A DNA stretch of 20,834 bases. It comes from a virus. The stretch is from the IMG/VR virus record IMGVR_UViG_3300005530_000085, positions 1-20,834 of that record. The stretch is one strand, 5' to 3'. The notes below the pieces were generated by a model. That model was not told the origin of the DNA. It made no database searches and was given only the letters and a program-made list of their open reading frames with translations. Shown piece by piece: positions 4,379 through 18,573 of this stretch. A program made the translations under genes and the position numbers. Position 1 is the first letter of the stretch; every line of letters starts with the position of its first letter.

Positions 4379-5193
4379 CCTATATCCCCTCGCATATCTC
4401 GCTGCCTCAGCATCCGAAGACGCGCCGTCTCTGCCGGATGCTCAATGCGTCCTTACCGGCCGTGATTGGGCACCTTCATCTGCTCTGGTATTGGGCCATG
4501 AACTACGCGCCGGACGGCGATCTCACGCCCTTCGACGCGGCCGACATCGCCGATGCCGCCGGCTGGGAGGGCGACGCCGATACCTTCATGCAGGCGCTCA
4601 TCGCATGCGGCCCTGGCCAGACGGCCGGCTTCATCGAACAGGTCGAGAGTGCATTGCACATCCACGACTGGGAGCAGTACGGCGGCAAGCTTCAGCAGCG
4701 CAAAACGGCGAACGCAGACCGCATGCGCAGCGCTCGTGCGGAACATGTGCAACGCACGTGCAACGCACAAGACGAGCACGTGCAAGCCGATGGGGGCGCA
4801 CGTGCGGCACATGTGTTGAGCCAGAGGAGAGGAGAGGAGAGAAGAGAAGAAAAAGAAGAGGAGAGTACGGCGCGTGCGCGCGCCCGTGCCAGCCTCGAAG
4901 GATTCGGAATTGAGCCGGTCAAGGTTGATGCGTTGTTCGATCTTTTTCCGGATATCAGCGATATGCAATTCGCGGTAGAGGCTGATGCATGCGCATCCTA
5001 TTGGCTTACCGAGCGCAAGGCGCCGCCAAAGAATCGCTATCGCGCCGCGCTCAGTTGGTTTCGGAAAGCACGGGAGTTTCAGGAAGAGCGCATGAAACCC
5101 AACAACCCTGAAGACCGCCCGCCCGGACGCTTGCCAGTGGTCTATCAGCTTTATGACGAGAATGGACCCGTACGCCACGAAGGAGACGATTAA
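4375..5193 (+). CDS. Replication initiator/replisome organizer-like protein
   Basis: A 272-aa protein with the architecture of phage replication initiators. The N-terminal domain (about 1-110) reads as a winged helix of the replisome-organizer type (YIPSHISLPQHPKTRRLCRML, then HLHLLWYWAMNYAPDGDLT and DWEQYGG). A highly charged disordered linker follows (about 120-165, rich in Arg and Glu), then a helical C-terminal domain (about 170-245, ending in RYRAALSWFRKAREFQEERM) likely to contact the helicase. It follows the DnaB-like helicase with a 4-bp overlap. The linker-coding DNA carries the iteron and purine tract described separately, just as the lambda O gene contains its origin. The function is inferred from architecture and place, not from catalytic motifs. 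Confidence 0.75.
   Translation: MTYIPSHISLPQHPKTRRLCRMLNASLPAVIGHLHLLWYWAMNYAPDGDLTPFDAADIADAAGWEGDADTFMQALIACGPGQTAGFIEQVESALHIHDWEQYGGKLQQRKTANADRMRSARAEHVQRTCNAQDEHVQADGGARAAHVLSQRRGEERREEKEEESTARARARASLEGFGIEPVKVDALFDLFPDISDMQFAVEADACASYWLTERKAPPKNRYRAALSWFRKAREFQEERMKPNNPEDRPPGRLPVVYQLYDENGPVRHEGDD
4735..4865 (+). other. Candidate replication origin: iterons plus polypurine tract
   Basis: Inside the initiator-like gene, GCACGTGC palindromes occur at 4754-4761, 4776-4783 and 4798-4805, spaced exactly 22 bp, about two helical turns. GTGCAACGCAC is repeated perfectly in tandem at 4747-4757 and 4758-4768. CGTGCGG(A/C)ACATGTG flanks the set at 4735-4749 and 4801-4815. Directly downstream, 4823-4865 is 43 nt of unbroken purines, turning A-rich in its second half. 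Iterons followed by a strand-asymmetric purine tract within the initiator gene is the layout of lambdoid origins. Function is inferred; part of the repetition could come from the low-complexity linker being encoded. Confidence 0.55.
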
Positions 5194-8791: not shown

Positions 8792-9252
8792 CCGCTGACG
8801 AGACGACGGCCCTTGATGATGCGGATACTGTACCGTCGATCACTGAACTGATTGACGAGCTTCGCGAGCACGTGTCGGGACGCGTAGCGTTCTGCCAGAT
8901 CTGCGACGGCGCGCTGACCGTGCATCGCGAGTTCACGCCCGATAGCGATTACAGCATTGAACGAGATGATGTCTACGTGACCGGCCCCTGCGTCGATCAG
9001 CCAGATCACCGGCATGAGCAACGCGAAGACGAAATCATCGCCTATGCCGACGGGCAGATGTTGGAGCGCTCCGTTCTCGAATATGGCGTGTTGAGGCTCT
9101 GCGCCGAAGTCGAACGCCTGCGTGCCTGGCTCGAAAGTATCGAAGCCGTCACTGAAGCTCAGAATGGCCCTCGATGCCCGGGATTGTGGCTATTGGACGC
9201 CGCATGGGAATCAGCGCGCAAGGCATTGGCCGGAGAGGCGGTGCCCGAATGA
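8788..9252 (+). CDS. Putative zinc-binding accessory protein, 154 aa
   Basis: Starts at ATGA and contains CQIC (about residues 38-41) followed at a distance by GPCVDQPDHRH, a plausible Cys/His set for one metal site. The C-terminal half is helical (LRLCAEVERLRAWLESIE, LDAAWESARKALAGEAVPE). The opening MTADETTA and the ending ALAGEAVPE recur in the next gene (MSADETPA, ALVGEAVPDE), and the DNA at these borders is repeated. Function unknown. Confidence 0.6.
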   Translation: MTADETTALDDADTVPSITELIDELREHVSGRVAFCQICDGALTVHREFTPDSDYSIERDDVYVTGPCVDQPDHRHEQREDEIIAYADGQMLERSVLEYGVLRLCAEVERLRAWLESIEAVTEAQNGPRCPGLWLLDAAWESARKALAGEAVPE

Positions 9253-11190: not shown

Positions 11191-11244
11191 AGAATCAACG
11201 GATTCTACAGAGAGACTTGACAGATGCAAAAGTCATGCTATACT
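11191..11244 (+). promoter_or_regulatory. Strong promoter with upstream palindrome (site 3) for the tRNA block
   Basis: TTGACA (11217-11222), 16-bp spacer, TATACT (11239-11244) preceded by TGC, giving an extended -10. The 16-nt palindrome AGAATCAACGGATTCT (11191-11206; arms AGAATC/GATTCT) is centred about 52 bp upstream of the predicted start near 11251. It shares GAATCNNCGGATT with sites at 1316 and 6236. The first tRNA begins 20 nt after the predicted start, so this promoter very probably transcribes the tRNA block. Confidence 0.75.
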
Positions 11245-11270: not shown

Positions 11271-11343
11271 GCTTTCGTAGCTCAATTGGCAGAGCGGCTG
11301 TTTTGTAAACAGCGGGTTGTGGGTTCGAAGCCTACCGGAAGCT
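11271..11343 (+). tRNA. tRNA-Thr(UGU)
   Basis: Full cloverleaf. Acceptor GCTTTCG/CGGAAGC, D stem GCTC/GAGC with GG in the loop, anticodon stem GCTGT/ACAGC with loop TTTGTAA (anticodon TGT, U33 present), variable GGGTT, T arm GTGGG-TTCGAAG-CCTAC. CCA is not encoded. It would read ACA codons. First element of the noncoding block. Confidence 0.95.
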
Positions 11344-11398
11344 CTAGGGTGGCGGCGTGGCTATATGACACGCGAATCGCGCATCAGGGAGTTGTCAA

Positions 11399-11468
11399 CG
11401 GGAGGTGGTGCAGTGGTAGCACGCGCCATGTGGTTGGCAAGGGGGCTGTTCGATTCAGTCCCTCCCGA
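11399..11468 (+). tRNA. tRNA-like, possibly His(GUG), with abnormal anticodon loop
   Basis: Perfect acceptor CGGGAGG/CCTCCCG, D arm GTGC-AGTGGTA-GCAC, T arm GGCTG-TTCGATT-CAGTC. The anticodon arm is short: GCCA/TGGC closes a 6-nt loop TGTGGT (or GCC/GGC an 8-nt loop), one base off the usual seven. If U33 is 11429 or 11431 the anticodon cannot be fixed; TGTGG with U33 then GTG would be His. A C-A mismatch sits at the outer pair. Isotype is uncertain. Confidence 0.55.
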
Positions 11469-11534
11469 TTAAAACGAGGCGTCACTTCACGCCTACCTGA
11501 TGCTTAGCCGGGGCAGGACCGGCCCACCCTACAC
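11469..11534 (+). other. Spacer between tRNAs with two small hairpins
   Basis: AGGCGT-CACTTC-ACGCCT is a 6-bp hairpin and GCCGG-GGCAGGA-CCGGC a 5-bp hairpin. No coding frame with a ribosome site. They may be processing signals or tRNA remnants. Confidence 0.3.
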
Positions 11535-11607
11535 GGGCCTATAGCTCTAACGGCAGAGCGGCGCCCTTGCAAGGCGATGGTTCGGGGTTCGAATCCTCGT
11601 GGGTCCA
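11535..11607 (+). tRNA. tRNA-Ala(UGC)
   Basis: Acceptor GGGCCTA/TGGGTCC carries the G3-U70 wobble that identifies alanine tRNAs. D stem GCTC/GAGC, anticodon stem GCGCC/GGCGA (outer G-A mismatch) with loop CTTGCAA (anticodon TGC), variable TGGTT, T arm CGGGG-TTCGAAT-CCTCG. CCA not encoded. Reads GCA codons. Confidence 0.93.
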
Positions 11608-11711
11608 CGGACGGTGTCCAAATACACCCAACCCCGACCGGGTTGTAAAGCCTTGGCATGACGTTGCCGGTAAAGATCGGTGCGAAGAAATCTCGCGGGA
11701 AACCGGCGGTC
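11608..11711 (+). ncRNA. Structured spacer, no gene seen
   Basis: A run of hairpins: GGTGT/ACACC with a 6-nt loop, CAACCC/GGGTTG with a 5-nt loop, GGCA/TGCC, and an outer GCCGGT/ACCGGC enclosing GCGA-AGAAATC-TCGC. No T-run follows any of them and no complete tRNA can be folded. It may be an RNA in its own right or the remains of one or two tRNAs. Confidence 0.3.
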
Positions 11712-11790
11712 GTCTCTGTAGTTCAAATAGAAAGAACACCGGGGCCTTGAACAAGCACCGGCGACATCGGGGCGGTACCGATCAGGGACA
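11712..11790 (+). tRNA. tRNA-like with lengthened anticodon arm, possibly Phe(GAA)
   Basis: Acceptor GTCTCTG/CAGGGAC (7 bp) and D stem GTTC/GAAC fit a tRNA. The D loop lacks the GG pair, and the T arm ATCGG/CCGAT has the non-standard loop GGCGGTA instead of TTCRANY. The anticodon arm is 23 nt, not 17: CCGGGGC/GCACCGG (one G-A mismatch) around CTTGAACAA, whose centre is GAA (Phe). Either a decayed tRNA or a tRNA-shaped RNA; its 3' part overlaps a terminator-like hairpin. Confidence 0.4.
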
Positions 11791-11801
11791 CCGACCTTTT
11801 T
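11770..11801 (+). terminator. Terminator-like hairpin overlapping the tRNA-like element
   Basis: GGGCGGT (11770-11776) pairs with ACCGACC (11790-11796) with one mismatch across a 13-nt loop and is followed by TTTTTATT. Its stem uses T-arm and 3' bases of the tRNA-like element, so only one of the two structures can form at a time. Confidence 0.45.
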
Positions 11802-11834
11802 ATTGACTGGGCATGGCCCTGATGCCGGGCCACA

Positions 11835-11906
11835 GCGCATGTAGCTCAGTGGTAGAGCGGACGGTCTCAACAGCCACGGTCGCAGGTTCGAGTCCTGCCA
11901 TGCGCA
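11835..11906 (+). tRNA. tRNA-like with defective anticodon stem
   Basis: Acceptor GCGCATG/CATGCGC (perfect), D arm GCTC-AGTGGTA-GAGC, T arm GCAGG-TTCGAGT-CCTGC are all canonical and the total length is right (72 nt). The 23 nt between D and T arms do not give a 5-bp anticodon stem. The best fold is GGT/GCC next to loop CTCAACA (anticodon CAA, Leu), with two outer mismatches; a register giving CTC (Glu) has 3 of 5 pairs. No long variable arm, which argues against Leu. Isotype open. Confidence 0.6.
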
Positions 11907-11972
11907 CACCGAGTGTTAGCCGAGCTTGGAAGGCGCCATAAAGTCGGCTCGTGGCCATGACGAAGCGTGGCA

Positions 11973-12043
11973 GTGCATGTCGTCTAAAGGCAGGACGCCG
12001 GCCGATGTGGCCGGGGGTGGCCGTTCGATTCGACCCATGCGCA
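11973..12043 (+). tRNA. tRNA-like lacking U33 in anticodon loop
   Basis: Acceptor GTGCATG/CATGCGC (one wobble), D stem GTCT/GGAC with AAAGGCA loop, perfect anticodon stem CCGGC/GCCGG, T arm GGCCG-TTCGATT-CGACC (one C-A mismatch). The 7-nt anticodon loop is CGATGTG: G instead of the near-universal U33, and ATG in the anticodon place. One base shift would give U33 plus GTG (His) but a poorer stem. Its 3' end CCATGCGCACA is the same as that of the element before. Confidence 0.55.
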
Positions 12044-18473: not shown

Positions 18474-18545
18474 GGGGATGCCAGGAACGCCCGACCGGTG
18501 CCAGTGCGCTGATCGGATACGGCGGTTCGATTCCGCCCATCTCCA
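18474..18545 (+). ncRNA. tRNA-like element with canonical ends but no cloverleaf middle
   Basis: Begins one base after the minor head stop codon. GGGGATG (18474-18480) pairs with CATCTCC (18538-18544), 7 bp with one wobble. T arm GGCGG-TTCGATT-CCGCC (18521-18537) is perfect and directly next to the acceptor strand. The 40 nt between them, the right length for D plus anticodon arms, fold instead as one hairpin CCGGT, GC bulge, CAG-TGCG-CTG, ATCGG. No D arm and no 7-nt anticodon loop. ACC follows the 3' strand. Confidence 0.5.
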
Positions 18546-18549
18546 CCGT

Positions 18550-18573
18550 AACCGGCCCACGGCGGCCGGTTTT
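18550..18573 (+). terminator. Rho-independent terminator after the tRNA-like element
   Basis: AACCGGCC (18550-18557) pairs perfectly with GGCCGGTT (18564-18571) around CACGGC, with the stem running into TTTT. It would end transcription of the packaging genes before the scaffold and capsid genes. Confidence 0.75.

Follow-up and report, generated by a model that had tools for sequence, protein, structure and literature searches.

The 20,834-base IMG/VR virus record IMGVR_UViG_3300005530_000085 (below, the window) encodes an array of six tRNA-like elements (E1–E6, positions 11271–12043), downstream of a promoter match, in which two members are normal tRNAs and four have abnormal anticodon arms. 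A seventh element, E7 (18474–18548), is shaped like the tRNA-like domain of transfer-messenger RNA (tmRNA) without the mRNA-like domain. We propose, with a probability of roughly 0.4, that the four odd array members and E7 act through the tRNA body: they would be decoys or competitors, directed at host proteins that bind the bodies of tRNA or tmRNA. Among RNAs of a kind that T4 and Gordonia phages already have, so far without explanation, the array is a strong case; E7 and its look-alikes in other phages appear to represent a tmRNA variant that has not been described.

Anticodon arms in the tRNA array

The array and its flanks contain the following features:

11217–11244, plus strand: promoter, sigma-70-type TTGACA-16-TATACT with TG before the -10
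11271–11343, plus strand: E1, normal tRNA-Thr (UGU); ARAGORN, Rfam tRNA 60.9 bits
11399–11468, plus strand: E2, tRNA-like; C1-G72, acceptor 7/7, D 4/4, T 5/5; ARAGORN tRNA-???
11535–11607, plus strand: E3, normal tRNA-Ala (UGC) with G3-U70; ARAGORN, Rfam tRNA, pair count
11712–11790, plus strand: E4, tRNA-like; acceptor 7/7, D 4/4, T stem 5/5, non-canonical D and T loops
11835–11906, plus strand: E5, tRNA-like; acceptor 7/7, D 4/4, T 5/5; Rfam tRNA 53.3 bits
11973–12043, plus strand: E6, tRNA-like; acceptor 7/7, D 4/4, T 4/5; Rfam tRNA 36.1 bits
12045–12284, plus strand: multi-hairpin stretch of 240 bases; z = -5.25 against dinucleotide shuffles

The promoter agrees with the consensus at 11 of 12 positions, no site on either strand of the window matches better, and E1 starts 26 bp past its -10. 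ARAGORN returned five of the six elements at these coordinates, three of them with a displaced or undefined anticodon, and four of the six passed the Rfam tRNA cut-off. A strict scan for an acceptor plus T arm gave five tRNA-length matches on the plus strand (0.02 expected per strand), corresponding to four array elements and E7 at 18474. E4 is the weakest member and was detected only by a relaxed scan that yields about 2.2 chance matches per strand.

An earlier note on this DNA had described a six-element array with mostly abnormal anticodon arms, and ARAGORN, Rfam and direct pair counts bear this out. The acceptor stem (7/7) and D stem (4/4) are fully paired in all six elements and the T stem (5/5) in five; the defect in E6 is a C.A mismatch. 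ARAGORN and Rfam agree with the note that Thr-UGU and Ala-UGC are normal, with the reservation that position 27-43 of the Ala element is G.A. Its statement that the other four keep the acceptor, D and mostly T arms fits the pair counts but passes over the loops of E4, where the T loop is GGCGGTA and the D loop lacks GG. In the anticodon domain, E2 has C27.A43, four of five stem pairs and a loop of 6 nt (or 8 nt), as had been claimed, and pairing and fold reproduce the claimed 23-nt arm of E4, which consists of 4 bp, a 1x1 loop, 2 bp and a 9-nt loop. The three-pair stem reported for E5 exists in a shifted register, while no pair forms in the normal one. The loss of U33 in E6 is real: a 5-bp stem carries a 7-nt loop, CGATGTG, with G33 in its place. 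Thus, none of E2, E4, E5 and E6 combines a 5-bp anticodon stem, a 7-nt loop and U33, and E6 departs from this on U33 alone.

With element detection blind to the anticodon region, non-canonical anticodon arms were found in three of five window elements and in 16 of 133 elements from other phage stretches (117 canonical; Fisher p 0.02), a difference that is understated because the comparison stretches include records chosen as precedents and some false matches. When the comparison was limited to annotated tRNAs from five phage stretches, p was 0.0001–0.001. The odd elements are enriched in this phage, yet elements of the same kind are found elsewhere. A portal-family relative of the phage also has one element with a 4-bp/4-nt anticodon arm. 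In a terminase relative, a Tyr-like element (9149–9241) has the anticodon stem CGGAG/CTCCG around 24 nt with an inner hairpin.

The earlier note had suggested evasion of anticodon nucleases or a decoy function. Nuclease-insensitive mycobacteriophage tRNAs carry anticodon-loop substitutions and are proposed still to decode (van den Berg 2023, PMC10264068). They share changed anticodon loops with the elements described here, but their changes are point substitutions in otherwise canonical 7-nt loops, a description that fits none of E2, E4, E5 and E6. Because these four cannot decode normally, only a decoy or non-translational role remains from that idea. tRNA-Sec, tRNA-Pyl and mitochondrial tRNAs also depart from the cloverleaf; unlike the odd elements, they retain a decoding anticodon arm, as reviewed (PMC7609411).

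Non-standard decoding was considered for E2, which with an 8-nt loop (AUGUGGUU) and its proline-type C1-G72 acceptor could read a four-base codon as a +1 frameshift tRNA. A C1-G72, A73 end, as E2 has, is typical of proline tRNAs in bacteria, and the loop size would suit such a role. However, a 6-nt loop, closed by an A31-U39 pair, is just as likely, E2 lacks a purine at position 37, and E4–E6 are left unexplained, so that this explanation is barely credible. The two normal tRNAs match rare codons (ACA is 4% of Thr codons, GCA 12% of Ala codons), but such codon compensation says nothing about the odd elements.

We infer that the array would be expressed as a single tRNA operon in which Thr-UGU and Ala-UGC decode, whereas E2, E4, E5 and E6 would be non-decoding tRNA-like RNAs, unable to serve a normal codon. 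Their acceptor, T and D body could still be a substrate for RNase P, the CCA-adding enzyme and perhaps a synthetase, and they might act as decoys for enzymes that read the body or for tRNA-cleaving defences.

A tmRNA-like element among the head genes

The earlier note covered the array but overlooked E7, the element with the best comparative support. It is followed by a hairpin:

18474–18548, plus strand: E7, tmRNA-like, without mRNA-like domain; Rfam tmRNA 36.9 bits, fold
18550–18573, plus strand: terminator-like 8-bp hairpin, AACCGGCC/GGCCGGTT, into TTTT; read from the sequence, not in the terminator-scan list

The fold of E7 consists of a 7-bp acceptor that includes G3-U70, a single interrupted hairpin and a perfect T arm; a D stem is absent, and the 3′ end is A-CCG. 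The Rfam tmRNA model (RF00023, gathering score 47) aligns to it end to end with the middle deleted. In G3-U70 alanine identity, the missing D stem, and the T arm and acceptor, E7 resembles the tRNA-like domain of tmRNA (ssrA; one-piece, permuted and phage-encoded). It differs from tmRNA in size (~75 versus several hundred nt) and in having 40 nt between acceptor and T arm where tmRNA has an mRNA-like domain with tag frame and pseudoknots.

Similar RNAs were gathered from IMG/VR with a pattern made from the acceptor and T arm of E7. The pattern matched 37 viral contigs, two of which hold ordinary tRNA-Ala; removal of these and of duplicates left 25 distinct sequences including E7 itself. Most lack a D stem and fold with a single hairpin, and the tmRNA D-loop string UUCGAC is present in several. 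When 33 contigs were searched whole, 20 passed the Rfam tmRNA cut-off with matches of only ~67–82 nt; a tRNA-sized secondary match in one of these contigs scored ~18 bits. The acceptor and T-stem positions that the pattern leaves free are paired in 22 of 22 aligned sequences, with up to five pair types, and the inner hairpin covaries in one subgroup. A leave-one-out model built without E7 gave it 55.3 bits, a test that is partly circular because the set had itself been gathered with a pattern taken from E7. With the same model, the halves of real phage tmRNAs scored 34–38 bits and tRNAs mostly below 34, although one tRNA-Ala with the acceptor of E7 reached 47.7 bits.

A full-text literature search of partial coverage, and hence weak evidence of novelty, returned phage tmRNAs, including permuted ones, and no description of a tmRNA without a message domain. 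Annotation programs overlook such RNAs or assign them to the wrong tRNA. We rejected a candidate mini-tmRNA in cultured Pseudomonas phages, which have a real permuted tmRNA there. This permuted (two-piece) tmRNA is unannotated in the Pseudomonas aeruginosa Samunavirus phages SM1 (1425–1816) and UF_RH6 (532–916).

Alanyl-tRNA synthetase recognises the acceptor-helix pair G3-U70 and also charges minihelices, tmRNA relies on this pair, and the tRNA-like domain of tmRNA is bound by SmpB and EF-Tu. E7, separate from the array, would be one of a set of phage RNAs with the shape of that domain, in which a hairpin replaces the mRNA-like domain. As an alanine-charged competitor of host tmRNA, it could occupy SmpB, EF-Tu or the stalled ribosome with a body that has no message, so that no tag would be added. 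If this holds, phages would have a new means of interfering with ribosome rescue, a tmRNA that lacks the message domain. A bolder version holds that diverse phages encode a minimal alanine-chargeable tmRNA that blocks or enters trans-translation, switching off or replacing tagging, and that the non-decoding RNAs of the array extend this strategy as additional mimics of the body alone; we consider it doubtful.

E7 starts right after the stop codon of the minor-head gene, between this and the scaffold gene, and the terminator-like hairpin follows. This position, and that of the array within ~1 kb with no evident gene ahead of an exonuclease-like gene, would fit a role as transcript punctuation, in which RNase P/RNase Z would cut at the tRNA-like bodies and so separate and protect the transcripts of the phage. 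Several E7-like RNAs are, however, located among tRNA genes, and no tRNA-like element occupies the position of E7 in the related phages examined, which makes punctuation rather improbable. In Terrisporobacter phage TVCOM_ph1, a GP20-b RNA (4720–4788) lies upstream of the scaffold gene, at the place corresponding to E7. We rejected the idea that the E7 site itself holds a cis-regulatory GP20 motif, since E7 does not match the GP20 family.

Maintenance or decay of body-only RNAs

Two precedents, T4 RNAC and a Gordonia-phage element, favour maintained non-decoding RNAs. RNAC (species 1 RNA) and RNAD are transcribed, with unknown function (PMC3014915 and PMC9697503; Northern blots in one of them). 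In our scan, RNAC shares with the array elements a 7-bp acceptor helix, a perfect T arm and the lack of a canonical anticodon arm; it differs in its length of 139 nt, its own hairpin and its proven expression, and no sequence homology was seen. The RNAC/RNAD region matched 770 phage records, 650 of them over at least 80% of the query, and the RNAC T-stem changes in distant relatives are compensatory.

The Gordonia-phage element lies in or near a tRNA array and, like the array elements, has intact acceptor, D and T arms without a canonical anticodon arm. Its sequence is different, its anticodon region spans ~30 nt, and there are fewer such elements per phage. It is labelled tRNA-Leu in BrutonGaster, tRNA-Ala in Miskis, tRNA-Val in CherryTomatoes and tRNA-OTHER/undetermined in Smoothievirus. 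Both sides have changed in 6 of 16 body pairs, a level reached in none of 500 shuffles. The T4 and Gordonia cases show that selection can preserve tRNA-like RNAs of the body-only type. The odd elements of the window share the array setting, the intact acceptor and T helices and the lack of a canonical anticodon arm with this type; E4 fits least well, owing to its T loop. Should phages prove to use body-only tRNA mimics repeatedly, the decades-old question of the role of RNAC and RNAD would become testable in several systems.

Alternatively, only Thr and Ala are in use and the other four elements are recently inactivated pseudogenes, in which the anticodon domain was hit first or of which only those with intact bodies are recognisable. 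The earlier note named decay as an alternative, and for the array elements it is nearly as probable as function. Single transitions would leave mismatches such as those of E2 (C.A), E5 (A.C and C.A, counted in the shifted register) and E6 (C.A), and the T-stem mismatch of E6 and the non-canonical D and T loops of E4 are expected from decay. The note had also argued that the damage is centred on one arm, unlike decay; it does lie mainly in the anticodon domain, with these defects of E4 and E6 as exceptions. Detection is moreover biased to intact bodies. On the other side, E2 and E5 have no broken pair beyond the anticodon domain and a normal TTC loop, and similar elements elsewhere are maintained with covariation.

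Besides the defects just listed, several points weigh against the proposal that E7 and the odd array elements act through their bodies. Searches with five proteins near the array or E7, each singly, plus two alignments, found no diverged copy of the array, but relatives at 26–56% identity without it and otherwise identical copies only. The identical copies hold no sequence divergence that could separate conservation of the array's odd arms from decay. The T4 and Gordonia RNAs are analogues of the array elements, not sequence homologues. E7 stays under the RF00023 gathering score, its leave-one-out score is partly circular, and an SmpB gene was not found on the contigs with E7-like RNAs. Comparison of the array with cultured phages by Megablast and blastn gave no matches or generic tRNA matches only.

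Source DNA and gene context

Contig 3300025921_000067 overlaps the window with zero differences over the stretch compared, and a third contig is 100% identical across 2,904 bases at the right end of the window. Since other contigs of the phage are identical, the array is unlikely to be an assembly error of a single contig. PHROGs named window genes for a sigma factor, a DNA methyltransferase, a DnaB-like helicase, the terminase, the portal, and the minor and major head proteins. Contig 3300025921_000067 reaches 6.4 kb beyond the left end of the window, and the translations in this extension, judged by eye and not with profiles, include tyrosine integrase-, ImmA/IrrE-type- and helix-turn-helix-like proteins. 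The phage is therefore probably temperate.

The same contig has a tRNA-Sec match at 2351–2438, left of the window start (50.6 bits, above the Rfam cut-off), with a UCA anticodon in the loop CTTCAAA and ~330 bp from the integrase-like gene. It is likely to be either an attP within selC sequence or a phage tRNA-Sec. In tRNA-dependent lysogeny, a tyrosine integrase gene is accompanied by an attP core matching a host tRNA gene and by a phage tRNA of the same isotype (PMC10865867). Here, we found the integrase-like gene with the tRNA-Sec match nearby. UGA recoding, which the match had prompted us to consider, was rejected because phage genes such as the minor-head gene terminate in TGA.

tRNA and tmRNA genes are common attachment sites (PMC9004378), and with a tyrosine integrase-like gene in the phage E7 could be no more than an attP remnant, left from integration into a host gene for tmRNA or tRNA-Ala. 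This is very improbable: E7 comprises both strands of the acceptor and is located within the head-gene module, the candidate for attP is the tRNA-Sec match beside the integrase-like gene, and the two-stranded shape of E7 recurs in about two dozen other sequences.

Weak Rfam matches to Plastid-ycf2 5UTR, far below the cut-off, occur on the minus strand at 11835–11907 and 18474–18546, antisense to tRNA-like elements. The multi-hairpin stretch behind the array contains a long hairpin with TTGTAAA in its loop and has a terminator-like end, CCCCCGAGT...ACTCGGGGG-TTTT. TTGTAAA is the core of the Thr-UGU anticodon loop and occurs three times in the window (0.31 expected in the whole window, both strands), at 11303, 11643 and 12123, all on the plus strand in the array region, the third copy being the one in the long-hairpin loop.
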